Shown here one piece after another: positions 1-64,000 of a stretch of DNA of 64,000 nucleotides. Numbering within the stretch: the first letter of the stretch is position 1; each line of letters opens with the position of its first letter. The position numbers and the translations under genes are program-made. Source of the stretch: a virus. A model generated the notes under the pieces. The model was not told the DNA's origin. It made no database searches and saw only the letters and a program-made list of their open reading frames with translations. The stretch covers positions 1 through 64,000 of the IMG/VR virus record IMGVR_UViG_3300017750_000002. One strand, 5' to 3'.

Positions 1-768
1 CAACCACAACAAACTCAACAACAGCAACAAAGACAACCACAACAAAGACAACCACAACAAAGACAACCACAACAAAGACAACCACAACAAAATGTTAAAT
101 TACCCGATAGTCGATTAACTCCCCAAGAAAGAGCAGAACAAAATAAACAAAGAAATTTGAGAAATCAAACTCCTTTACCTAAAGTAGACACTCAACTAAG
201 TAGGGAAGAAATGCAAGAAAGAAACAGGCAAAGAAATTTGAGACAACAAGTATCACTACCAGAAAAAGAACAACCCCCTAAAGAAACAAAAACAGTTGCT
301 TTACCACAAAAACCACAAAAAACACAACAACAACAACTACTAGAACAAATGCGAGAATCAGTTCCTTTGCCCAAACAAACAAGCCAACAACCGACCCAAC
401 AACAAATATCAAGACCATTAGAACAAGAAACAGTACCTTTACCGAAAAATTTATCACCGAAAGTTAAACAAAAACTTCAAAGGAATGAAGTCAAACAAGT
501 TCCACTACCAAAGACACCAGAAAAAGAAGAACTATCACCGGAAGTTAGACAACAACTTCAAAGAAAAGTTGGTCAAGTAGCAAATCCACCTGTTGATGGT
601 TCTCCACTAAGTAGAACAGAACAATTTGGTTTGAGTCTCAGTGAAAAAGCAAGAAAAAGAAGAGAAGCCGAAATAGCAAGACTAAAAGGCGGAATAAACC
701 AAAGACAACAGCAAAGACAATCGAATATCCGAGAAAGACCAAGCAGAATAAGTTCGGGTGGTTTGTGA
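1..768 (+). CDS. Gln/Pro-rich repetitive protein, 5' end outside window
   Basis: The reading frame is open from base 1, so the gene starts upstream of the window; a TTG near 157 is only an internal codon. The protein is dominated by Gln, Arg, Lys and Pro and is almost certainly disordered. It contains several kinds of internal repeat: RQPQQ units at the left edge, recurring VPLPK/SLPEK-type hexamers, and two copies of an LSPxVxQxLQR block near residues 155-190 of the visible part. It lies directly upstream of tail genes and its stop overlaps the next start. I do not recognise the family. A virion-associated, linker or scaffolding-like role is inference from position only. Confidence 0.8.
   Translation, partial: QPQQTQQQQQRQPQQRQPQQRQPQQRQPQQNVKLPDSRLTPQERAEQNKQRNLRNQTPLPKVDTQLSREEMQERNRQRNLRQQVSLPEKEQPPKETKTVALPQKPQKTQQQQLLEQMRESVPLPKQTSQQPTQQQISRPLEQETVPLPKNLSPKVKQKLQRNEVKQVPLPKTPEKEELSPEVRQQLQRKVGQVANPPVDGSPLSRTEQFGLSLSEKARKRREAEIARLKGGINQRQQQRQSNIRERPSRISSGGL
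31..90 (+). repeat. Four perfect 15-bp tandem repeats
   Basis: The unit agacaaccacaacaa occurs four times head to tail without mismatch inside the Gln-rich gene and encodes RQPQQ. The 15-bp period keeps frame, so copy number can change without destroying the protein. Confidence 0.95.
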
Positions 769-31681: not shown

Positions 31682-32131
31682 TTATTCCTCCTTCTTTGCG
31701 TATTCATTGTTGTCCGGCCAATATCCATCAACTTGCATATTAGTTTCCAACCAAAAGAAATGCGCCGCTTCAATAGTTTCTTTGCCACGAATTATGGCAT
31801 TCCTTTCAGCATTAGCAACCATATTTCTTATTGCTGTATCTGCCCATTCTTTCAATAGTCGGATTGCACCATGACTGATTGATAAATCAGTTTCACTGTT
31901 AGCAATCTTACGAAGGCTGAAAGTAGTATTCATCTTGTATTTTTCAACAGGTTCAGGTTCGGGTGTAATAAACTCTCCATCCTTAAAATAAGGAACCCTC
32001 TTAGCCAGCATTTTAGTTGGTCTTCCTTGAGTAGTGGTAATATCTTTCAAATGTGCATATCCTTGTGAATCAATCTTAACACAAGAATATGTCTTAAAAT
32101 CAATTACTGTTAATTTTCCTACTTCTATCAT
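31682..32131 (-). CDS. Histone-fold protein with N-terminal extension
   Basis: A 149-residue protein. Residues about 72-128 follow the archaeal histone pattern: SLRKIANSETDLSIS (helix 1 and loop), then GAIRLLKEWADTAIRNMVA (long helix 2) and RGKETIEAAHFFW (helix 3), where RGKETI parallels the AGRKTI of archaeal histones. The first 65 residues are an extra, partly beta segment, and an acidic tail follows. Could package viral DNA, alter host chromatin, or act as a TAF-like transcription factor. Histone identity is by eye alignment only. Confidence 0.65.
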   Translation of the reverse strand: MIEVGKLTVIDFKTYSCVKIDSQGYAHLKDITTTQGRPTKMLAKRVPYFKDGEFITPEPEPVEKYKMNTTFSLRKIANSETDLSISHGAIRLLKEWADTAIRNMVANAERNAIIRGKETIEAAHFFWLETNMQVDGYWPDNNEYAKKEE

Positions 32132-33657
32132 ATTAATCTCTCCACATCTTCAATCGTGTTTATGTCTGCTACGAACTTATCGTCACGGATTCTATTCATC
32201 CGAGGGAATCGCAAACCAATATTACCCTTTGCATCGGTGCTAACTAAATCAGCCTTAACTTCTAAAACAATTCTTGGTAAGAACTCGTATCTTCCGTTCG
32301 AGAAGTTCTCAACAATCTTTCTCAATTGTCCTGTCAAGCGAATTAAATCTAAATCTGAAAAGCCAGTACCAATAGAACCAATGTTAGTAAAGCCATTGTC
32401 GGACTTTACGCCGATTTCAAATGTACCGAATACATTTGACCTACGACCTTCACCATAAGAAGCCGCAAGAATAACCACATCTAATTCAATTTGTGGGGGT
32501 TTGTATTTAGCCCAACCCGTACTTCTTTTACCTGCTTCATAAGGCATAGATGCATCTTTGACAATAATACCTTCAAAGCCATCATTAATTGCTTGATGAT
32601 AAAAAGCCATTACATCTCCATCTTTATCCATTCGGTGCGCTTGGTCTGGATTTGATTTAAAAATCTCTAATCTGTCAGAATAAGATAAGTCCATAATCGT
32701 GCGCTCTCCCCACTTCAAACAGTCGAAGATAACCCACCGTACCGGCACTCTATTCATGGCCTCCGTATGGTCCTTAGAATGCACTCTCGTACCCATTTTC
32801 TTATGCTCATCGGGCGTTCCGTCGTCTTTGACTGGATAAATTTCACCGTCTAAAATCACCTGCATAACCTCATATTTACTTACCAGTTCTGCAACATCAG
32901 CAAATTGAGGTGTGACTATTTTACCCTTTCGATTAAAAATAATCACATCATTTCCATTCTTATGGATTTGATACCTATTACCATCATACTTGTAATCAAC
33001 AATTCTATTTGTCGGCCACTTAGCCATAGGTACTTCTTTCGCAAGCATTGGTTTAATGAACTTACCATGTGTTAAATTACAAGGTGGAATTTCTTCTCGC
33101 TCATAATAAGAAACAACATCTCTAATTGAATTGAAGTTACAGTGCTTCTTAACTACACCAAGTTTTTTATTGAAATGCTTTGCAATAATCTTCTTTACTA
33201 CTCCATCTCGCAAACCATTCCTCGTTGTCTTTAACCAATGACGAATAAACCATTTTGCTTCTAAAGCAGATAAGTCTGCTAAGAAAGCATCAATTGTTCT
33301 ATATGCTTCCGAATCAACCCCACCACAATCTAATGAAATGATTCTGTAAAATGTAGCAAGACTGTGTTCTGTTTGTGTCACCGCCGATGGGTCGAGATAA
33401 TAAATAGCATCTCCCAAATCATCATGGGCGTTGTATTCTTGTTCAATCTCATCATCAAAACAGTTATACATCTTAGTAAGCCATTTCTTCGCCTTTGCCA
33501 AACCAATATTGTTTGATTCGTATTCCTGTGAAAGAATAGCAAAGAAAGTTGCCTTGTCTTCAAAATTCTCCAGTTCCTTCGAAATTACTATTACTTGTCG
33601 TGTTGGTGTCAATAATTCTGTCGCTTCCATTAATCTCGCCATTTTTGTCATCGTCAT
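32128..33657 (-). CDS. ATP-dependent DNA ligase
   Basis: A 509-residue protein of archaeal ligase I size. Motif I is DYKYDGNR with the nucleotidyl-accepting Lys. Motif III is VILDGEIYP, motif IV is FEGIIVKD, and motif V is WAKYKP. An N-terminal helical DNA-binding domain and C-terminal OB-fold are present by length. Seals nicks using ATP; it would join Okazaki fragments with the neighbouring clamp. First ATG has GGAG about 14 nt upstream; two more ATG codons follow within ten residues. Confidence 0.93.
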   Translation of the reverse strand: MTMTKMARLMEATELLTPTRQVIVISKELENFEDKATFFAILSQEYESNNIGLAKAKKWLTKMYNCFDDEIEQEYNAHDDLGDAIYYLDPSAVTQTEHSLATFYRIISLDCGGVDSEAYRTIDAFLADLSALEAKWFIRHWLKTTRNGLRDGVVKKIIAKHFNKKLGVVKKHCNFNSIRDVVSYYEREEIPPCNLTHGKFIKPMLAKEVPMAKWPTNRIVDYKYDGNRYQIHKNGNDVIIFNRKGKIVTPQFADVAELVSKYEVMQVILDGEIYPVKDDGTPDEHKKMGTRVHSKDHTEAMNRVPVRWVIFDCLKWGERTIMDLSYSDRLEIFKSNPDQAHRMDKDGDVMAFYHQAINDGFEGIIVKDASMPYEAGKRSTGWAKYKPPQIELDVVILAASYGEGRRSNVFGTFEIGVKSDNGFTNIGSIGTGFSDLDLIRLTGQLRKIVENFSNGRYEFLPRIVLEVKADLVSTDAKGNIGLRFPRMNRIRDDKFVADINTIEDVERLI

Positions 33658-35133: not shown

Positions 35134-36645
35134 TTATTCCTCCAATAACACAGCAACTTCAGTAGTCAAGAATAATGATGCAATTGACATAGCCGCATTA
35201 AAACTTCCCTTAGTCACCTTTACGGGGTCAATAACCCCTGCTTCAAACAAATCTTCATACTTTTCAGTAAGAGCATTATAACCATAGTGCGGGTTTCCAT
35301 TTTGGAATACAGGGAAAGGTTCATCACTATGACCACCATTTCGCAGTAAAACAACTGCAGGTTCAGATAAAGCGTCATAAACAATCTTATGTCCGGTCTT
35401 TTCAATTGCTAGGTTCTTTCTAGCATTTAGCAAACCATATCCACCACCAACAATAATACCTTCAGCAAGAGCGGCCTTAGTTGCATTTAGAGCATCATCT
35501 AATCGTTCTTTCTTTTCACGCATTTCAAGAGATGAAGATGCACCAATTTGAATTGTAGCAATACCTCCACTCAACCGAGAGATGCGCTTCTTCAAACGCT
35601 TCTTATCGAAATCATCATCAATTGTATCAAATACTGACTTAAGAGTATTGATTCGTTCATCGGCAGATTTACCTCCAATAATAGTAGTAGATTCCTTTGT
35701 AATGATAATCTTCTCACAACTACCAAGTTCATCAAGAGTCACCAATTCGGGGTCGTCTTTACTTTCATCTGTATGGAGCCTACCACCAACAATAGAAACA
35801 ATATCACCAAGTTCATCTAATTGAGCATCACCAAAATTAGGTGCGGTGACAACAGCAACTTCAATTGTCTTTTGTAGAATATTCATAATGATATTGTTTA
35901 ATGCAGTACCATCCATTCCTTTGACGAATAGAACCATTGGTCGCTTTTCTACTGCGGCCATTTCCAACATTGGCAATACTTCTGAAAAGTTCTTCATAGC
36001 CAAATTAGAAGTAAAGATTAGAGGATTAGTGAAGGTTGTTTTCCCATCTTCACCATTAGCCATTAGGTGACTTAAGTACCCTTCATCAATCTCCAAACCT
36101 TTACGAATAACCATATTCGTTCTATGGCTATTTGACTCTTCAACAGTAATAATTCCATCACGACCAACTCCTTCCAAAGCAGTGCTAATTAGACCACCAA
36201 GATAACTATCATTGTTTGCCGCAATAGTAGCAACATTTAGAATATCAGCATCGCCAATATCACAAGCCATCATTTCAAGATGTTCAATAACAATATCTTG
36301 TGCTTCCTTCAATTCCTTAGAAAGAGTGTGAAGGTTAGCAACATCAGCGTTATTGATTTGTTCACACAATGCTCTTGCAATAACACAAGCAGTTGTTGTT
36401 CCGTCACCGGAATTATCTTGTGCTTTACTTGCCAAGTTTTGAACCATTTGAACACCCATTTGAACATAAGGGTCTTCATGTGAAACATACTTCGTAATAG
36501 TCACACCGTCGTTAATAATAACAGGTGGATTACCTTGAAGAATTACTGTCTTTGCTTGTGGCCCAAGTGTAGGCAATACAGTATCAGCAACCAAATTAAT
36601 TCCTTGTAATAGTTTTTCTTTTACTTCTTTTCCATGTATAATCAT
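35134..36645 (-). CDS. Group I chaperonin (GroEL/HSP60-like)
   Basis: A 503-residue protein. Group I signatures are clear: LGPQAKTVIL, NDGVTITKYV, SGDGTTTACVIARAL, RDGIITVEES, then APNFGDAQLDELGDI, RISRLSGGIATIQIG, EKKERLDDALNATKAALAEGI and GGGYGLL, ending with VIDPVKVTKGSFNAAM. The ATP-binding DGTTT is intact. It is shorter than E. coli GroEL (548) and lacks the Gly-Met tail. Group II thermosomes are the usual archaeal chaperonins, so a GroEL type is notable. Probably folds virion proteins with the GroES-like protein at 37745-37981. Confidence 0.92.
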   Translation of the reverse strand: MIIHGKEVKEKLLQGINLVADTVLPTLGPQAKTVILQGNPPVIINDGVTITKYVSHEDPYVQMGVQMVQNLASKAQDNSGDGTTTACVIARALCEQINNADVANLHTLSKELKEAQDIVIEHLEMMACDIGDADILNVATIAANNDSYLGGLISTALEGVGRDGIITVEESNSHRTNMVIRKGLEIDEGYLSHLMANGEDGKTTFTNPLIFTSNLAMKNFSEVLPMLEMAAVEKRPMVLFVKGMDGTALNNIIMNILQKTIEVAVVTAPNFGDAQLDELGDIVSIVGGRLHTDESKDDPELVTLDELGSCEKIIITKESTTIIGGKSADERINTLKSVFDTIDDDFDKKRLKKRISRLSGGIATIQIGASSSLEMREKKERLDDALNATKAALAEGIIVGGGYGLLNARKNLAIEKTGHKIVYDALSEPAVVLLRNGGHSDEPFPVFQNGNPHYGYNALTEKYEDLFEAGVIDPVKVTKGSFNAAMSIASLFLTTEVAVLLEE

Positions 36646-39027: not shown

Positions 39028-40194
39028 TCAAACACCTCGCAACTTGTTCAACTTCTTCTCCAACTTGGCCGCCTTCTTAGCCTTTCGTGCTATTCTACGA
39101 CGCTTCCAACGGCTCATATTGGCATTCTTAGCCTCTTCCTTCTTCCGCTTTGAAATAACCTTAGTTGCCTCCTTAAGCATAGCAATATGCTCAGGTTGTT
39201 CACTATCAACAATCATTTCTAACCTTTGAGCAAGTGAGGCATAACTTCGACCAAATTTATTTCTTGCTTCATCAATTGACAATTCATAGAAATTACACAG
39301 TAGTTCGAATTCCTCTTCGTGTTTCCAATGCTTTTGACTTCTTTCATGCTTTCGTTCTGGAAGTGTTTCTAATACTTCCTTTACTTCACTAAGCATTTCC
39401 TTCTCATCGTTTGAAAGATGGCGAGTTGTTGGATTACCATGCTTTTCAACAAATACATCAATCTTCTCAGGTAGATTCTCTACCTTTGTTTCAATTGGCT
39501 TAGGTGGCTTCCCGTCACCACGATGAGTTCCAGTCATGTCTAAAATATCTATCATCTTTTGACGCTTAAAAGCAGTGTATCTTGAAGAAACCCCACCTTT
39601 CTTAAGTATAGACCACTGTTGCTCAATAGAACGAATAGTTCGGTTATCGAATCTTTCACTAGCAATCTTTCGAATTACCTGTCCTTTACTGCTTTTTTTA
39701 ACCTCACATTCATACATACAATGGAGAAGAATAAGTTTTTCATCTTCCGTCCATCGAACCTTTGAACCTGTTCCACGACCTTTTGCCTTGATAACTGACT
39801 TTTCAGAAATTTCCGCTTTAACAAGAAGTTCAGCAATTGCTTTTTGCAGGAAAGACTTACTTAGTTTTCCTTTCAGTGCATTACCATACAGGAGTTCAGT
39901 AGTGCGCTTAAGTTCTTTCTTAGAAATATTATCATCAGTTGTTAGGTTAGCGTAAAACCTACATTGTTTCTTTGTTGCTGGCTCATAATTTTCTGGTATT
40001 TTCATTTTATTTTCCTCCTTATTTTCTTTTGTTTTTCCTGCCAATGCTGACATTCTAGTATTAATATTCTTTCCTGTTCTCTTAACAGAATAAACTTGTT
40101 CTAACCTTCGTGAAATGACATTCCAAGTTAATCCTTCTTCTCTCAATTTCAAAACAAACTCAATTTGTTCTTCTGTCCATTTATTGTACTTCAT
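39028..40194 (-). CDS. Protein with three Myb/SANT-like repeats
   Basis: A 388-residue basic protein. Tryptophan-led helical repeats begin at residue 6 (KWTEEQIEFVLKLREEG), near 150 (RWTEDEKLILLHCMYE) and near 295 (HWKHEEEFELLCNFYE), each followed by helices like Myb/SANT or SANT-related HTH domains. The C-terminal 45 residues are extremely basic (WKRRRIARKAKKAAKLEKKL). It starts within the end of the E1-like gene and ends just before the JAMM gene, so it is the middle member of a coupled trio. DNA binding is likely; the target is unknown. Confidence 0.65.
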   Translation of the reverse strand: MKYNKWTEEQIEFVLKLREEGLTWNVISRRLEQVYSVKRTGKNINTRMSALAGKTKENKEENKMKIPENYEPATKKQCRFYANLTTDDNISKKELKRTTELLYGNALKGKLSKSFLQKAIAELLVKAEISEKSVIKAKGRGTGSKVRWTEDEKLILLHCMYECEVKKSSKGQVIRKIASERFDNRTIRSIEQQWSILKKGGVSSRYTAFKRQKMIDILDMTGTHRGDGKPPKPIETKVENLPEKIDVFVEKHGNPTTRHLSNDEKEMLSEVKEVLETLPERKHERSQKHWKHEEEFELLCNFYELSIDEARNKFGRSYASLAQRLEMIVDSEQPEHIAMLKEATKVISKRKKEEAKNANMSRWKRRRIARKAKKAAKLEKKLNKLRGV

Positions 40195-40748
40195 ACATTC
40201 ACAACCTTAAAGTCACATACTTCTTCATTATTAAAGAATCTTTGAGTCCACTGTGCGCCCATTCCTGCGATAGCAATTTGCATAAAGTGAACATTTTTAT
40301 TTGTTCCATCCCAACTATCTCCTTGACAACTAAATGAACCATCTTTACCTGCTAAAAGCGTATCGTACATTTTGGGGTCGGCTTGATGGCTAACAAGGGC
40401 GGCGTTCCTACCTTGTGCCCGTAAGTCCAACCACTTAATACTTGTGTTGTAAAGGGTTCGCCTAACTGACAAATTATCAACACAACAGATAACCAAGTCA
40501 AATCCGTTCATTTGTTTCTCAGTTAGAATTGGGAACTTAGAAAAGTGATTAACTGATTCATATTCATTCATCATTACACTTGCCTTATTTTGCCCAACAT
40601 GCCCTTTCATAAAGTTTTGATAGGTTAAGTTCTTTGTTTCAACTGAATCGGGGTCTGCAACAGTAATGTTGTATAGTCCGACTTTATCTAAGAACTGAGT
40701 CAAAAATGACCCAATTCCGCCTGTTCCAATTATTAGTATTTTTCTCAT
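40191..40748 (-). CDS. E1-like/ThiF-family adenylyltransferase
   Basis: A 185-residue protein. Nucleotide-binding IIGTGGIGSFLTQFL opens a Rossmann fold. DPDSVETKNLTYQNF, then HVGQNKASVM and DLVICCVDNLSVRRTLYN match ThiF/MoeB/E1 enzymes that adenylate the C-terminal Gly of ubiquitin-like proteins. FSCQGDSW contains a possible acceptor Cys. It lacks the extra Cys and zinc domains of MoeB or eukaryotic E1. Likely activates the Ubl candidate at 46100-46300; that partnership is inference from co-occurrence. Confidence 0.82.
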   Translation of the reverse strand: MRKILIIGTGGIGSFLTQFLDKVGLYNITVADPDSVETKNLTYQNFMKGHVGQNKASVMMNEYESVNHFSKFPILTEKQMNGFDLVICCVDNLSVRRTLYNTSIKWLDLRAQGRNAALVSHQADPKMYDTLLAGKDGSFSCQGDSWDGTNKNVHFMQIAIAGMGAQWTQRFFNNEEVCDFKVVNV

Positions 40749-52431: not shown

Positions 52432-52506
52432 TGGAACTTATCGGATTTGAACCGATGGTCGCTCGGTTATGAGCCGAGTGCATTAACCATACTATGCTAA
52501 AGTTCC
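52432..52506 (-). tRNA. tRNA with CAU anticodon (Met or Ile2)
   Basis: Acceptor GGAACTT pairs with AAGTTCC. Anticodon stem CTCGG/CCGAG encloses CTCATAA, giving anticodon CAT. The T arm ATCGG-TTCAAAT-CCGAT is perfect. CCA is not encoded. The archaeal initiator usually begins AGCGGG, so this is elongator Met or an Ile tRNA whose C34 would be modified. Confidence 0.85.
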
Positions 52507-52511
52507 TTAAT

Positions 52512-52597
52512 TGGTGTCGAAGGCAGGATTTGAACCTGCGAACCTTTTAGGACAGGAATTTAAGCCCTGCGTGTTTGACCTACTCCACCACTTCGAC
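52512..52597 (-). tRNA. tRNA-Leu (UAA), CCA encoded
   Basis: Acceptor GTCGAAG pairs with CTTCGAC, followed by A and an encoded CCA (52512-52514). The anticodon loop CTTAAAT gives TAA. A class II variable arm is present (TCCTAAAAGGTTC), as in Leu tRNAs. T arm GCAGG-TTCAAAT-CCTGC is perfect. Shares the promoter at 52678-52690 with the Met-type tRNA. Confidence 0.85.
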
Positions 52598-57854: not shown

Positions 57855-58064
57855 ATGACTTGGACAGATAAACTTCAAAAAGGAAGTGTGAACGAAGACA
57901 AAGCAACTAAACTAATTAGGTATGCTAGAAATGAACTGAACATTAAAGGGAGAAACCTAGAAAATGTTCTTAGGATTGCATTACAGGAATTAGAATTAAT
58001 GCGTGGCGAAAGTGAAGAAGAAGGCCGAGTTGATTCAGTAGCCGGTTCTAGATTTGAAAGGTGA
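57855..58064 (+). CDS. 69-residue helical protein with variant N-terminal tag
   Basis: Begins MTWTDKLQK, a looser form of the shared M-x-W-x-x-I-[LI]-K start. Helical, with an acidic linker (GESEEEGRVD). AGGGGAT upstream. Function unknown. Confidence 0.65.
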   Translation: MTWTDKLQKGSVNEDKATKLIRYARNELNIKGRNLENVLRIALQELELMRGESEEEGRVDSVAGSRFER

Positions 58065-58069
58065 TTATT

Positions 58070-58987
58070 ATGAATTGGTGGGCTATAATTAAAAGACCCG
58101 ATATTTCCATGCCTGAAATTGATAAGTATTTTGAGTGGAATCCAGATTTTTTGGAAAAGACAGTGAAGGATTGGGATAAGGATAATCCTGCTAAGGTTCT
58201 TAGTATTGAACCACCACAAAGTCCTGACCCTGCCGAAAGAATGGAAGACGGTAGTATTCGATTTGCACCAAAAGGCTCAAAGAAGTTTATTCAAGATTCA
58301 TTTAAATTTATCACAGATAGGGCAATTGACAATCAATCTGGCCTTTTGAACATTTTAAGAGAAAAAGGATATAAAGTCACTGTCAAAGATTCTAGTTGGA
58401 TTAAGTCACATTACGGTAATAAATTAAACAGAATCTCAGTCCCAGAAGAAGCAAAAGCATATCTTATCACAGTCGGTTCAAAAATAGCGGAGTCAATGAG
58501 AAAGAAGAACCCCAAAAGAAGTGCTAGATTTCCAGATAAGAAAAGAAGTGCTAAAAATGTTGAACTATGGAATAAAGAACATAAGAAATTTAAATTAGAT
58601 ACATTAGAAGGTTTTCAAGATAGAATCCTACGAATAATTGGGAGAACGGAGGGTGATGTTATGAGATATATACAAGAAAATCCTAGTTTTATTAAAAATA
58701 AACACGACCTATATCTAACACAACGGGCCTTCCTCAATGCTCTTTGGGTTTGGCAAAACATAGAAAGGCCGATTTACAAGAAAATCGCAAGGGAAGACGA
58801 TGAGCGAAAGAGAATCGACGACGAAAAAAGAGCCGAACTATACGGAAGGATGGAACAAACTGACGACAGACAAAGAGAATTTTCTCGGCGTGGAATACCC
58901 CGAAACACTAAAAGAAATAAGGACCTACAACCTAGAGGAAAAATAGATGTTAATCAATTTAGGCAAAATAGGAGGAAAAAACAATGA
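58070..58987 (+). CDS. 305-residue basic protein with N-terminal tag
   Basis: ATG at 58070 with AGGTG upstream gives MNWWAIIK at the N-terminus. The protein is strongly charged, with a helical middle and a long Arg/Lys/Glu-rich C-terminus (about residues 235-305) likely to be a coiled coil and disordered tail. Ends overlapping the next start. No family recognised; could be a head or DNA-associated protein given the terminase-like gene downstream. Confidence 0.65.
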   Translation: MNWWAIIKRPDISMPEIDKYFEWNPDFLEKTVKDWDKDNPAKVLSIEPPQSPDPAERMEDGSIRFAPKGSKKFIQDSFKFITDRAIDNQSGLLNILREKGYKVTVKDSSWIKSHYGNKLNRISVPEEAKAYLITVGSKIAESMRKKNPKRSARFPDKKRSAKNVELWNKEHKKFKLDTLEGFQDRILRIIGRTEGDVMRYIQENPSFIKNKHDLYLTQRAFLNALWVWQNIERPIYKKIAREDDERKRIDDEKRAELYGRMEQTDDRQREFSRRGIPRNTKRNKDLQPRGKIDVNQFRQNRRKKQ

Positions 58988-59250
58988 ATTGGGAAAATAT
59001 ATTAAAGGTTAAAACATTAAGCGATGCTGACGGAAATTACAAGGTTAGTGATGTTTATACTCCTTCCCAGTTTAGTGACATTGTTCATAGTGATTTAGAT
59101 GAATACCACAATCAGCGTCGTTATTTTGATATAACTTATGACGGTGGGCATCCTCATGTCGGTGGCGCACATCAGTATTTTAAACCAACTAATCAGTATA
59201 TTAGAGATGCCGTTTGTATGCGATGTATGGTAAGGATAAACGCTCAATAA
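58984..59250 (+). CDS. 88-residue protein with N-terminal tag and Cys pair
   Basis: Begins MNWENILK. Middle part rich in Tyr, Asp and His (HVGGAHQYFKP); ends with CMRC, a possible half zinc site. Function unknown. Confidence 0.6.
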   Translation: MNWENILKVKTLSDADGNYKVSDVYTPSQFSDIVHSDLDEYHNQRRYFDITYDGGHPHVGGAHQYFKPTNQYIRDAVCMRCMVRINAQ

Positions 59251-59264
59251 AGGAGGAAACAAAA

Positions 59265-59525
59265 ATGACTTGGCAAAATATACTAAAGGAACTTTCTCCT
59301 AAACAGAAGAAATTAGACCGTAATAAAAACGGTGAAATTGATGGTGAAGATTTTGCCATGCTTAGAGAAGAAAAGGTTTCAAAGGAAATTAAGACATTCG
59401 AGAAGGATAAGAACGAGGCTGCATCAGCAGCAAGTTTGTCCGATTTAAAGGAGCAATTAAAAGATGCTCCTAAATACATTAAGACAGCATTAAACGAAAT
59501 CGAAAGATACTTACAAGGTGAATGA
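59265..59525 (+). CDS. 86-residue tagged protein with EF-hand-like loop
   Basis: ATG at 59265 has GGAGG upstream. Begins MTWQNILK, followed at once by KQKKLDRNKNGEIDGEDFAM. The loop D-x-N-x-N-G-x-I-D-x-x-D fits EF-hand or dockerin-type calcium binding, with Asp instead of Glu at position 12. The remainder is helical. A calcium-binding structural role is plausible. Confidence 0.65.
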   Translation: MTWQNILKELSPKQKKLDRNKNGEIDGEDFAMLREEKVSKEIKTFEKDKNEAASAASLSDLKEQLKDAPKYIKTALNEIERYLQGE

Positions 59526-59526
59526 T

Positions 59527-59766
59527 ATGACTTGGAAAAAAATAATTAAAGAAGAAAGAGAAATAACGCCAGACGACGAAAAACTTGAGGATTTGAAGGA
59601 AGAAGTTAAAGAGTTAGTTGAAGCAATTGTAGAACTTCATGAAAAAAGAGACGATGTTAAGTACTTTTTAGATGTTAAAACTTTAGATGAAATGTATCGA
59701 GAAGAAGACATTAAACAAGCATTTAAGGGATTAAATCTCATTTTCCGTGCATTAGATTTATACTGA
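59527..59766 (+). CDS. 79-residue acidic helical protein with N-terminal tag
   Basis: Begins MTWKKIIK at ATG 59527 (GGTG upstream). Then a long acidic helix (LKEEVKELVEAIVELHEK) and a second helical segment. Function unknown. Confidence 0.6.
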   Translation: MTWKKIIKEEREITPDDEKLEDLKEEVKELVEAIVELHEKRDDVKYFLDVKTLDEMYREEDIKQAFKGLNLIFRALDLY

Positions 59767-59775
59767 GTGATTATT

Positions 59776-60210
59776 ATGAGATGGGAAGACATATTAAAAG
59801 TTAAAGACATGAAAACCGGCGAAATGCTAAAGGTTGATATTGCAGAATTTATTGCTGAATTAAAATCTAATTTGGAAGATGCCGCATTAGGATTTGAAGG
59901 ATTAGTTGAATCTGGTAGAAAAGCCAGACTTGAAGTTTCAAGGGTTGATGGTAGATTAACAAGACCACGACTTGACAATGATGTTGGTTGTGGTGTTAAA
60001 GTTATTGCAAGAAATCTTGGTGAGGAAAAGGTTAGATATGATATTCAAATTCGATTTGACCCTAGAGATGATACTAAAGGTACTGTTGGGTTAGTCAATG
60101 GTAATGAACTTAAGTTGGGTATGAACGACGAAGTTAATGGAATTGGTGGTTTAACAAACAGAATTAAACAAGCCATTAAGGATTCAATAAATAAAAGCAG
60201 GAGGCTTTGA
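59776..60210 (+). CDS. 144-residue protein with N-terminal tag
   Basis: Begins MRWEDILK at ATG 59776. A helical part is followed by a beta-rich core (VKVIARNLGEEKVRYDIQI) and a basic C-terminal helix. No family recognised. Confidence 0.6.
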   Translation: MRWEDILKVKDMKTGEMLKVDIAEFIAELKSNLEDAALGFEGLVESGRKARLEVSRVDGRLTRPRLDNDVGCGVKVIARNLGEEKVRYDIQIRFDPRDDTKGTVGLVNGNELKLGMNDEVNGIGGLTNRIKQAIKDSINKSRRL

Positions 60211-60211
60211 T

Positions 60212-60904
60212 ATGTCTTGGGAAAGCATTCTAAAAGCAGACTTCTCATTTAGAGATGTTATTAAAAATTCAAGAGGCGTATATGCTGGTATCTTTGACCG
60301 TATTCAAATTACACCCGACCTTAGTAAATTAGGCGGTGCAGTTTTAGGAGATGCTCTTAAAGTAGTTGAAGGTATTGATGGTATGACTGTTGCTGATAAA
60401 AGAAAAGCGGCTGAAGTTGTTTTAATGGAACCTATGCTCATAGGTCTTGATATGATGAATGACCCTTCTATGGAAAAAGACCTTGATAATTTAATGGAAA
60501 TGAGAGTGACTACTATTTCTCAAGAAAAAGATAATAAAGGCGAAGAATCTTTATCTCCTGAACAAATTAATACTATTGAAGAAATTGCTAATAAAGCAGC
60601 ACAGAAAGTTCACGATGAAATGAAACAAACAATCAAGGAAACACTTCAAGATAAATTCGGTGAAGAGTTGCTTGGAGCCGAGAAACAAGAAGTAATGGAA
60701 GGACTTCTTGAAGTTGTTTCAAGTCAAGAATTTGTTGGATATACAGCAGTAGTATTAAATGCTCTAATTATCAAAGTCGCTAAAGAATCTGAAGAAAAAG
60801 CAACAGAATCGGATTTTGAAGTTGAAGTAAATCCAGACCAAGCCTTTTCGGAAGACTTCATGGAAGCAAACAAAATGGATTGGTTCTCACAGATTAAGCG
60901 GTGA
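60212..60904 (+). CDS. 230-residue acidic helical protein with N-terminal tag
   Basis: AGGAGG precedes ATG 60212. Begins MSWESILK. The rest is helical and strongly acidic, with a long predicted coiled region around residues 110-170. Composition resembles scaffolding-like proteins. No family recognised. Confidence 0.6.
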   Translation: MSWESILKADFSFRDVIKNSRGVYAGIFDRIQITPDLSKLGGAVLGDALKVVEGIDGMTVADKRKAAEVVLMEPMLIGLDMMNDPSMEKDLDNLMEMRVTTISQEKDNKGEESLSPEQINTIEEIANKAAQKVHDEMKQTIKETLQDKFGEELLGAEKQEVMEGLLEVVSSQEFVGYTAVVLNALIIKVAKESEEKATESDFEVEVNPDQAFSEDFMEANKMDWFSQIKR

Positions 60905-60909
60905 TTTCC

Positions 60910-61440
60910 GTGTGGTGGGAGATTCTTAAGAATGCTAAAGTTAGTGGCAAAGCCACTGGCAAGGGTTCTAGTTTTGATGCATCTAAAATTAAGATTAATA
61001 TTGATGAACCAGACGACTGTTGCGATGAAGTCTATAATAAACTTGTTAAATTTATAAATCGTAATGATGTTGTTGCTTATGCTTTTCCTAATGTGTATAT
61101 GGTAAGTGATTTTACTAGAGAATCTTTAGATGGATTAGGTCACAAGTTTTATTTAAAATACCAACCTCTTCCGCCACTTAACAGGAAAGCAACCTGTAAA
61201 GATGGTGTTTTTTTATACATCCAACTCCGAAGAATTCACCACGATTGTTCGGACACGCTAAAGTCTGACGCTTATCCTTTTTCTTCTGAACAATATCGTA
61301 ATGCCAAAAAATCATTTGAAGAATCAATTAAAGAATGGAAAATGCTTAAAAATACTTTCTCAAGAGAGTTTAACACATTATGGGATGATATTATGAAGTG
61401 TGATGATTTTAAGCGAGAACTTTACCGTACTCCAATTTGA
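60910..61440 (+). CDS. Tagged protein, tandem paralogue of 61451-62020
   Basis: GTG at 60910 with GGTGAT upstream gives MWWEILKNAK. Residues 1-45 are almost the same as in the next gene, including GKGSSFDASKIKINID and a DDCC motif; the rest has diverged. A 176-residue protein with several Cys and His. Function unknown. Confidence 0.65.
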   Translation: MWWEILKNAKVSGKATGKGSSFDASKIKINIDEPDDCCDEVYNKLVKFINRNDVVAYAFPNVYMVSDFTRESLDGLGHKFYLKYQPLPPLNRKATCKDGVFLYIQLRRIHHDCSDTLKSDAYPFSSEQYRNAKKSFEESIKEWKMLKNTFSREFNTLWDDIMKCDDFKRELYRTPI

Positions 61441-61450
61441 AGGTGTTGAT

Positions 61451-62020
61451 ATGAGGTGGTGGAAAATTCTTAAGAATGCCAAAATTAGTGGCAAAGCAAA
61501 AGGTAAAGGTTCTTCCTTCGATGCCTCCAAGATTAAGATTAACATTGATGATAAAGACGATTGCTGTGAAGAATTTTGGAAAACTATTCAAGAATTTAAG
61601 AATGAACATATAATTGTTTTTAAGGTGATGGGAGATGAGATGTTCGACACTGAAAATTTTAAAAATACTACTTTTGATGGTATAGGCCATATGTATTATG
61701 AAGGAGATACCTTAGTTATGCCCATGTCTTCAAATAAACCTTGTTCGGATTCACGCTCGCTGTTTAGTCTTATAGAAGATATTTACTTTGATATTATCGA
61801 ATCCGGCTACAAAGAGAGCGATTTTGTATCGGTAGTGGACAAGGAATGGAAAAAATTTGGACATTATGTAAAAGGTAATATGTATCCTTTTTTACCGAAA
61901 CATTATGGACAAGCCACTCTTATACAAGTTAATGAGTGGCCCAAACTTGTAGGTAAATTTCTTGAAGAGTATAATGATTTGTGGCGGAAGTACGAAGCCT
62001 GTGAAGAATTAAAGGGATGA
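61451..62020 (+). CDS. Tagged protein, tandem paralogue of 60910-61440
   Basis: ATG at 61451 follows AGGTGTTGAT and gives MRWWKILKNAK. Shares the first about 45 residues and the LDGxGH/FDGIGH turn with its neighbour. 189 residues, acidic. A recent duplication with fast change in the C-terminal part. Confidence 0.65.
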   Translation: MRWWKILKNAKISGKAKGKGSSFDASKIKINIDDKDDCCEEFWKTIQEFKNEHIIVFKVMGDEMFDTENFKNTTFDGIGHMYYEGDTLVMPMSSNKPCSDSRSLFSLIEDIYFDIIESGYKESDFVSVVDKEWKKFGHYVKGNMYPFLPKHYGQATLIQVNEWPKLVGKFLEEYNDLWRKYEACEELKG

Positions 62021-62024
62021 TACT

Positions 62025-62192
62025 ATGAAATGGTGGAATATAATTAAAGGCTCATGTTGCGATGCTTGCGGCAACTTGAATAAGGAGTCCGGCGGTGTAG
62101 CGTTTGGGGGTCATGGCAACGACCCATCTAAATTCAACATAAAATACGGAGGTGACAAGAATGACGAAAAAGACGAGGAAATCAACAGTTGA
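62025..62192 (+). CDS. 55-residue Cys-rich peptide with N-terminal tag
   Basis: Begins MKWWNIIKGSCCDACG, then a Gly/Asn-rich and acidic tail. The KFNIKYGGD segment recalls KIKINID of the two preceding paralogues, so it may be a shortened third copy. Its end overlaps the next gene. Confidence 0.55.
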   Translation: MKWWNIIKGSCCDACGNLNKESGGVAFGGHGNDPSKFNIKYGGDKNDEKDEEINS

Positions 62193-63279
62193 AGTAAATG
62201 GCAACACTATTGAAGCACCGCAATATAAATTTAAAGCGGAATATGCAGCATGGAGAAGAAAGGTTGATAGTATTTCTTCTGAGAAAATTGCCAGCACAGG
62301 AAGTAAATTTGCAGATGCAAATAGAGCAAAATACCCTGCAACATTATACGGGCAATTAAGTCACCATGTCAATAAGTATCTTCGGGATAATTCTAGCAAT
62401 ACTGGTGACGATGGTATATTTGAAGTGTTGGATGCAATCAATGAATTACTCAAAGATAAAGAAATTTTCTTTACTCCCGAATTAAAAATATTAATAAAGT
62501 TTAGAGATAACATTAAGGGTATAGAAGATGATGAAAAATTAAATCCTAGAAATACTCTTTTTACTCGCCCTACTCGGTGGAAAAGAGGCGAGAAATTAAA
62601 GAATAGTAAAACAAGGGCCAAATATAAAATTGATGTTTTGAATGATAAGCCTCAAAGTATTTATGGACATTATCGAGATAATTACTTTGAAGATAAGTAT
62701 GGTGAGCCGGAAAAGAAAGGTTGGTGGAGTACCGAGAAGAATACTGCAAATCCACCATTAGCACAAGCCATTTATGGTAAAGGTGATTTAGGAATTACTA
62801 AGGGGCTATTAACCATTCTTGAAGAGGCTATTAAAGAAATATCGGAAAAGCCAATACCAAATATAGGATTAAGAGTTCAAAGAAATGCTGGTTCTTTAGC
62901 GGCAATACCATCTGTTAGAAAGCAAGTTTTTGCACTACTAAAAAGGAATGATTTATTTGTAGGTGGAAAACCTAAACTAAGACAAATGAGTTCTATATTA
63001 CAAAATATGGAATTTGTTGTTGGTGAAAAATCATTTGGTGGTCGAGCATCGCCTAAAAAGATTATTACTTTCGTTGGTAAATTAGATAACATTCCAAGTC
63101 CCATTGAAACATTTACATTGAAGACTTTCGGCCCTACTGCTATGGCTTCTTTAATCATGGCAGTTATTGGAAAGAAGACCTATAAACTTAAGAACGGTAA
63201 TTACTTAGATATTAAAGGTAGGACAGAAGTTCCTAAAGAAGAAGTAAAGAAGTCTTGGATGGAACACCTTTGGAGGTAA
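62161..63279 (+). CDS. Unknown 372-residue basic protein
   Basis: ATG at 62161 has GGAGGTG upstream. It lacks the N-terminal tag but ends with KKSWMEHLWR. Basic, mixed alpha/beta, with a hydrophobic MASLIMAVIGKK stretch near the C-terminus. Immediately upstream of the terminase-like gene. Function unknown. Confidence 0.65.
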   Translation: MTKKTRKSTVEVNGNTIEAPQYKFKAEYAAWRRKVDSISSEKIASTGSKFADANRAKYPATLYGQLSHHVNKYLRDNSSNTGDDGIFEVLDAINELLKDKEIFFTPELKILIKFRDNIKGIEDDEKLNPRNTLFTRPTRWKRGEKLKNSKTRAKYKIDVLNDKPQSIYGHYRDNYFEDKYGEPEKKGWWSTEKNTANPPLAQAIYGKGDLGITKGLLTILEEAIKEISEKPIPNIGLRVQRNAGSLAAIPSVRKQVFALLKRNDLFVGGKPKLRQMSSILQNMEFVVGEKSFGGRASPKKIITFVGKLDNIPSPIETFTLKTFGPTAMASLIMAVIGKKTYKLKNGNYLDIKGRTEVPKEEVKKSWMEHLWR

Positions 63280-63283
63280 GAAT

Positions 63284-63943
63284 ATGACTATAACCCGTAA
63301 GCGATGTGCCTTTTGTCAGCACGAACAAAGAGAAGAACTTGAAGCCTCTATCGAACAAGGTATGTCAAGTTGTGATGATTTAGATTCAAGAAACAATTGG
63401 AGAAGTGGCACTGCGGCCCAACATCAAAGAAATCATATGGGAGAATACACAAACAGTAGTAATCCAAAATGCAAGTTATGTGTGGACCCAATGCGAAAAC
63501 ATTACGAGGAAGCCCTTTCTAACGGTTCTATCACAAGTGACGCTATTTCTCAGGTGTTAGACATCTCGAAACAGCAGGTGCAACGCCACATGAAGCACCA
63601 CTTGGCCCCATTGGTACAGCAATCTGCGGCCACTATGATAGCGAAAAAGGAAGTAAATGAGATTGATTTGCTGAGTGCGAATGTTCAGCGATTAGATACC
63701 AAACTCAACGAACTATTCCTTAATACAGAATTAGAACCAAGAGAGATTGATAGTCTAACTAAACTCGCAAAAGAAGTTCGAGAGTCATTAAAGTATCTAC
63801 TTGAGTTCAAAGGCAAACTTGTTCACAAGAGACAAGATACAATTATTGTCGCACAAATGCAGGTTGTTCAAGAAGTGTTAGCACAGAACAATCCTGAGAT
63901 TTGGCTTGACATTAAGAAAAAGATGCAGGAGAGATTACAATGA
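63284..63943 (+). CDS. Terminase small subunit-like DNA-binding protein
   Basis: A 219-residue protein. Two repeats follow the pattern C-x-x-C-x(n)-helix-G-x(n)-H-x-x-x-H: CAFCQHEQREELEASIEQG...HQRNH and CKLCVDPMRKHYEEALSNG...RHMKHH, the second containing an HTH (ISQVLDISKQQVQRH). The C-terminal 100 residues are helical, suited to oligomerisation. This fits small terminase-type proteins that recognise packaging sites. The large subunit is expected just outside the window. Confidence 0.6.
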   Translation: MTITRKRCAFCQHEQREELEASIEQGMSSCDDLDSRNNWRSGTAAQHQRNHMGEYTNSSNPKCKLCVDPMRKHYEEALSNGSITSDAISQVLDISKQQVQRHMKHHLAPLVQQSAATMIAKKEVNEIDLLSANVQRLDTKLNELFLNTELEPREIDSLTKLAKEVRESLKYLLEFKGKLVHKRQDTIIVAQMQVVQEVLAQNNPEIWLDIKKKMQERLQ

Positions 63944-64000
63944 GTTGGAAAGATATAATTAAAGAAGAAATGCCTAGACCGCCAAAAAGCAGACTAAATA
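63940..64000 (+). CDS. Start of a tagged protein, cut by the window edge
   Basis: ATG at 63940 overlaps the previous stop (ATGA). The visible N-terminus is MSWKDIIKEEMPRPPKS, another copy of the shared tag. The remainder is outside the window; it might be the terminase large subunit or another structural protein. Confidence 0.7.
   Translation, partial: MSWKDIIKEEMPRPPKSRLN

Follow-up and report, generated by a model that had tools for sequence, protein, structure and literature searches.

A short tag on proteins of the late head arm

The window analysed here comprises bases 1-64000 of the 70,395-base virus record IMGVR_UViG_3300017750_000002, and its subject is an octapeptide of the type M-x-W-x-x-I-[LI]-K with which many otherwise unrelated proteins of the late arm begin. 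This tag is almost certainly a docking motif of some kind, and we consider it probable that tagged proteins are loaded into the assembling virus head, judging from gene context, the properties of the cargo, a likeness to the protease/scaffold tail and the analogy with T4. An earlier note on the window had listed eleven neighbouring proteins beginning with variants of the octapeptide. Nine of these match the pattern exactly (starts at 58070, 58984, 59265, 59527, 59776, 60212, 61451, 62025 and 63940), and the other two are as described there: the protein at 57855 has a looser, marginal tag outside the motif pattern and the one at 60910 has a real short-offset form, one residue shorter, on which the relatives agree.

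Over the whole record, the tag in the form W-x-x-[ILV]-[LI]-K was found on 13 of the 19 open reading frames (ORFs) of the late head arm (12 N-terminal, one C-terminal) and on none of the 87 others (Fisher p = 1.7e-12), and the tail and replication proteins do lack it, as had been stated. The 12 N-terminal matches compare with 0.13 expected from the internal motif rate. We have extended the comparison to 62 related loci found through relatives of the terminase-adjacent protein and 80 found through relatives of the tail tube. Among 2,722 de-duplicated ORFs of related contigs, the core pattern W-x-x-[ILV]-[ILVM]-[KR] starts at the third residue in 285 proteins, where its frequency inside proteins predicts 0.66; the reversed pattern gave 2. 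The terminase loci are rich in tags and the tail loci nearly devoid of them. When 16 long relatives were searched with a stringent DNA form of the tag, the late strand had 137 matches, the other strand 3 and the reversed control 1, so that the search proposed earlier for confinement to the terminase-side arm shows the tags following the late head genes. An exact DNA search of IMG/VR with the commonest tag form matched at least 120 stretches, and 134 of the 143 matches listed lay at an ORF start.

Conservation at the protein level

The tag is sharply bounded. Its logo reads [STN]-W-[KEFQ]-[DNE]-[IV]-[LI]-K, and the information drops to near background right after the Lys. Without the tag, the 471 proteins that carry it group into 258 clusters, of which 183 have a single member, in agreement with the claim that the remainder of most of these proteins is unrelated; an alignment of 148 cluster representatives shows the consensus MxWxxILK and then no conserved column. 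The codons are mixed between copies, with ATA, ATT and ATC used 217, 141 and 28 times at the Ile/Val position and all six Leu codons in use, and therefore the conservation is at the protein level, as the earlier note had also proposed. A repeated ribosome site, recent copying of DNA or an effect on translation start would explain why the tags adjoin start codons, and a Shine-Dalgarno-like upstream element was found in 267 of 463 cases (126 after shuffling). However, synonymous codons vary widely, the tag is kept on otherwise unrelated proteins and there are also C-terminal and internal copies (see below). These copies rule out a translation-start effect and, together with the codon variation, led us to reject copied DNA or a ribosome site, leaving practically no probability for this explanation.

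Tags at C-termini and inside proteins

Among the ORFs of the related contigs, 33 have the motif core at a distance of 1-3 residues from the C-terminal end, where 2 were expected. The window contains one family of this kind, encoded at 62161-63279 just before the gene of a terminase-small-subunit (TerS)-like protein. All 17 aligned members carry the C-terminal tag, its Trp is among the 19 invariant columns and a variable linker precedes it; the paralogue at L008:18133 carries the tag at the N-terminus instead, and two members (in L025 and L026) have additional sequence downstream of it. In the AlphaFold2 model of the window protein the body is predicted with a pLDDT of 87 and the tag as a lone short helix after a low-confidence tail. 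The model had no fold match in the PDB, and the three matches obtained were all to unnamed viral proteins. There are 29 copies inside proteins (the reversed pattern gave 2); most of the proteins concerned lack an N-terminal tag, 27 of the copies are in late-arm loci, and some lie between domains. Such placement at either end or inside fits a linear docking motif. Tiny domains (YxWGSKGPFxxRKKAxxxxxAAYASGY; DACYHKVRSRYKKWPSAYASGALVRCRKVGAKNWG) were also seen joined to the tag in varying orders in L167, L145, L036, L046 and L018.

Taken with its sharp bounds, its presence on unrelated proteins and its confinement to the late arm, this mobility gives good support to the short docking or packaging signal put forward in the earlier note. 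We infer that the tag folds as a capped helix of one to two turns, with Ser, Thr, Asn or Asp as N-cap, an acidic residue three positions later and W, I and L at i, i+3 and i+4 on one face. A helix with W, I and L on one side could also be an amphipathic membrane anchor, as had been suggested too, but it would be a single short turn with an acidic residue at +2, and copies stand at C-termini and in the middle of proteins. Membrane anchoring is moreover unlikely because a membrane-like segment is present in none of the 471 carriers but in 172 of 2,018 untagged ORFs (a set that includes some spurious ORFs), and we regard this role as extremely improbable.

Carriers and gene neighbourhood

On the late strand, the tagged genes surround those for terminase, portal and prohead protease, and none of the replication or major structural genes is tagged. 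The carriers are variable accessory proteins. One common carrier is predicted to be a soluble acid phosphatase of the PhoN type, its PAP2 motifs being intact. Cargo of the ADP-ribosyltransferase (ART) type, like Alt of T4, was considered for two families that look ART-like by eye: A2 (YHGT; L059:3859, L060:408 and L061:9571), whose AlphaFold2 model has a pLDDT of 37, and A3 ([FY]QG[ST]..YWTP; L020:5850, L029:11133, L102:3786 and L159:1014). Both are unconfirmed, PDB profile searches gave no match and we make no claim for them. The haloarchaeal virus HCTV-1 has a homologue of the capsid protein, but its head module is without a common N-terminal tag. In a different, myovirus-like contig the gene at L263:9825-10562 (minus strand) starts MRKKYISEKKLQSIVRKVLLEEMSWEDILK.

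The clustering of tagged genes around TerS, the terminase large subunit (TerL) and the portal would also be expected if the tag had a different partner in the virion or in packaging, be it portal, terminase, neck or a protein of an internal core such as the conserved 842-aa family, with the carriers as connector or core parts, and an untagged conserved protein of 790-997 aa (L002:9085-11613) stands among the tagged genes in 56 loci. Against this, the carriers are too diverse (258 clusters) and are gained and lost between close relatives, unlike connector parts, and tagged genes are also found beyond the portal and capsid genes, so we consider this explanation unlikely. The 790-997-aa protein has a helix-turn-helix (HTH)-like C-terminal end, ...YGIxxEHVYxIKANFR, and no relative in the PDB.

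A motif that docks diverse proteins to one partner would equally fit a tag that sorts its carriers to a site within the producing cell, for example a host complex or a virus factory, where they would act. Replication proteins, the obvious clients of such sorting, are however without the tag (0 of 75 ORFs of the record), the carriers are encoded on the late strand and the tag resembles the protease/scaffold tail, which makes this alternative rather improbable. A virus-encoded chaperonin, for which the tag would be a client signal, is another candidate partner: chaperonins bind amphipathic peptides and a Cpn60/TCP1 gene was found in 14 of 17 related records, this one included. Yet two records, G007 and G008 (90 and 98 kb), keep tags without a chaperonin match, and clients of chaperonins can usually do with a less specific motif; this reading is very improbable.

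A putative dock in the head

Loading into the head, the reading that we prefer, would work through a single common partner. The helix would bind this partner in the assembling head, and any soluble late protein gaining the tag at its N-terminus, its C-terminus or a domain junction would be loaded into the procapsid. The capsid shell or the scaffold layer is the likely dock because two head proteins end in a related motif, [DS]-W-x-[DE]-I-[HN]. One is the S78 protease/scaffold fusion encoded directly upstream of the SU10-type capsid gene; all complete copies of it end in the wider form [DSE]-W-x-[DEG]-[IL]-[HND]. The other is a small protein of 79-85 aa with the same kind of tail. That the tag uses the same dock as the scaffold tail is a possibility that we hold with more doubt than confidence. 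Capsid delivery is the most likely destination among those that the earlier note had suggested. Once loaded, the accessory cargo may enter the next host cell together with the DNA, as T4 cargo does; the case for ejection is evenly balanced.

Several points weigh against this reading. The scaffold tails have His, Asn or Asp at +4 where the tags have Leu or Ile, so that only the first half matches, and about 0.06 such tail matches are expected by chance at the ends of head proteins; for these two reasons the tag-like scaffold tail is only suggestive. The relatives have an S78 prohead protease, but there is no conserved cleavage site ([LI]-x-E) directly after the tag, with Glu following the Lys in 16% of tags. 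The TerL, portal, protease and capsid genes are missing from the record and were read in relatives instead. Most of the cargo is without a known domain, so that an effector role is no more than putative. Recognition by the maturation protease was also raised in the earlier note, but since nothing is conserved after the Lys, there is no support for it as the tag's main role.

We also looked at co-variation between tag and scaffold tail. In the clade of G007 and G008 the residue at +3 is other than Ile in 28 of 58 tags, against 90 of 463, a difference that may be clade drift rather than a clean covariation, and this line of evidence was rejected.

Virus record and affiliation

The minus strand of the record codes for PolB, the clamp loader (RFC), an ATP-dependent ligase and a chaperonin (35137-36645, Cpn60/TCP1, E 4e-46), and the plus strand for the tail tube and the late arm that runs from 57.8 kb to the end of the record. 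In relatives this arm extends through the terminase large subunit, the portal, the S78 prohead protease and the SU10-type capsid protein; the stretch from the terminase region to the tail genes is absent from the record. According to a published description (PMC12999244), Magrovirales are related to Druskaviridae and have modules transcribed in opposite directions. The layout found here, compared with the published description only, fits this order of tailed viruses of Poseidoniales, with a PolB-type replisome on one strand, a head-tail module on the other and, in a relative, a capsid protein like those of haloarchaeal Druskaviridae (24% identity).

Other genes of the minus strand include a ThiF/E1-like protein in the replication arm (40194-40748, E 3e-18) and adjacent tRNA-Met and tRNA-Leu genes (52432-52597). 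The ligase gene of the window lies at 32131-33657, separate from a gene that relatives have between those for the portal and the prohead protease, the 829-aa product of which contains an ATP-dependent DNA ligase domain (L145:8669-11155, minus strand).

Tagged genes of the record

All the genes described in this section are on the plus strand, and Pfam and PHROG searches with the tagged proteins of the window gave no match above the cut-off. The first gene of the late arm (57855..58064) has the marginal, degenerate tag MTWTDKLQK, which fails the motif pattern and lacks a hydrophobic residue three positions after the W. It is followed by genes for a 305-aa protein starting MNWWAIIK (58070..58987), with a similar N-terminus, MNWWAILK, at L008:3865, and for three small proteins of 88 aa (MNWENILK, 58984..59250), 86 aa (MTWQNILK, 59265..59525) and 79 aa (MTWKKIIK, 59527..59766), all three being exact matches to the motif and the second having in addition a weak EF-hand-like match (E 0.012, below the cut-off). 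The next protein, of 144 aa (MRWEDILK, 59776..60210), has a tagged relative at L003:5108. The 230-aa product of 60212..60904 begins MSWESILK and carries a second, C-terminal tag, DWFSQIKR (...MDWFSQIKR, at 60878-60901); in this family tags were found at both ends in six of six aligned orthologues.

The gene at 60910..61440 has a GTG start and its product reads M-W-W-E-I-L-K, one residue shorter than the other tags. The start as called is supported because the relatives have ATG at the same position and read MWWNILK or MWWDILK. A tagged paralogue of 189 aa (61451..62020) begins with the exact form MRWWKILK, and this pair of proteins has a tag-linker-IDIDD block similar to that of eight tandem tagged paralogues at L030:3606-8413 (MxWxDILK..(T/I)TQxRVKEIEDIDIDI), the C-terminal parts of which diverge. 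A 55-aa protein beginning MKWWNIIK (62025..62192), with a relative at L003:8709, precedes the C-tagged protein of 372 aa (62161..63279), whose tag SWMEHLWR (...KKSWMEHLWR) is at 63253-63276. Then follows the untagged TerS-like protein (63284..63943), which has an HTH region and served as the anchor for finding relatives; weak HTH matches and position suggest that it is TerS. The last tagged gene of the window, for a protein of 64 aa in full beginning MSWKDIIK and having zinc-ribbon-like cysteines at its C-terminus, starts at 63940 and continues past 64000 to G000:64134. Further tags lie beyond the window at G000:64148 (MNWMSILK), 69793 (MTEIWFEVLK) and 70194 (MNWEDILK).

At the other end of the record there is a 5'-truncated ORF (1..768), the complete relative of which (L065:8144-9262) begins MSWFDIIK. 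This tagged gene before the tail module is present in L065 and absent in L067, both with tail tubes 96-97% identical to that of the record, in keeping with the accessory character of the carriers.

Comparison with known packaging signals

Encapsulins are loaded through short terminal peptides that dock diverse enzymes inside an HK97-fold shell, although these cargo-loading peptides are C-terminal, have another consensus and serve cellular compartments with one or few cargos. Among viruses, there is a close likeness to the capsid targeting sequence (CTS) of the T4 proteins IPI, IPII, IPIII and Alt, which is also a short N-terminal peptide on unrelated, poorly conserved, soluble accessory proteins (PMC9026906), and the viruses described here, like T4, have a prohead protease and a scaffold. 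Packaging of IPIII needs no more than its first ten residues, and residues 4 and 7 of the CTS weigh most in targeting and residues 8 and 10 in cleavage (PMC9026906). The T4 internal proteins begin MKTYQEFIAE (IPII and IPIII) or MKTFKEF, and when the two are aligned by eye, the invariant Trp of this tag is opposite Tyr4 and its Ile opposite Phe7, giving the degenerate pattern [ST]-aromatic-x-[DE]-hydrophobic-[IL] (T-Y-Q-E-F-I in T4, S-W-K-D-I-L here). Nothing beyond this common pattern was seen, and homology to the CTS (MKT[YF]xEF) is not demonstrable. The CTS is N-terminal and found on few proteins, whereas the tag reaches about 20 per genome and stands also at C-termini and inside proteins; it has a different consensus, is without the conserved [LI]-x-E cleavage site and is a putative packaging signal.

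In P1, the N-terminal signal of DarB directs proteins, even a reporter, into the head, and the proteins so delivered guard the DNA against restriction (PMC9024508). This signal is longer (more than 9 and fewer than 30 residues), occurs on few proteins and lacks the consensus found here, and P1 is apparently without a separate scaffold. For the giant phage SPN3US, it has been proposed that the prohead protease is targeted to the prohead by a C-terminal propeptide and the ejected proteins by N-terminal ones (PMC7411985); these propeptides have roughly 60-130 residues, in contrast to an octapeptide, and, unlike the tag, come with a known cleavage motif. The C-terminal coat-binding helix-turn-helix of the P22 scaffold is essential for capsid assembly, and enzymes fused to the scaffold load the capsid (PMC9962691). 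That domain has 36 residues of unrelated sequence and the fusions are artificial, whereas here a natural short tag resembling the protease/scaffold tail would do the loading, with putative binding. By analogy, the tag would work like the signals of T4, P1 and SPN3US, without shown homology to them, and differs in its scale and its placement at both ends. The literature searched contained no earlier report of it.

We tentatively propose, with rather more doubt than confidence, that an order of archaeal tailed viruses uses an eight-residue, position-independent code that mimics its own scaffold/protease tail and loads a fast-changing set of accessory proteins (about 5-20 per genome, in hundreds of families) into the head for delivery to the next host. 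If this is true, archaeal viruses would join T4, P1 and giant phages as carriers of cargo packaged in the head, with a targeting code functional at either end of a protein, and so short a tag could be used for loading proteins into virus-like shells. The tag would be a sequence-only key to the particle-carried proteins, mostly without known domains, of uncultured and abundant marine archaeal viruses, and what these viruses deliver at infection would become directly testable.

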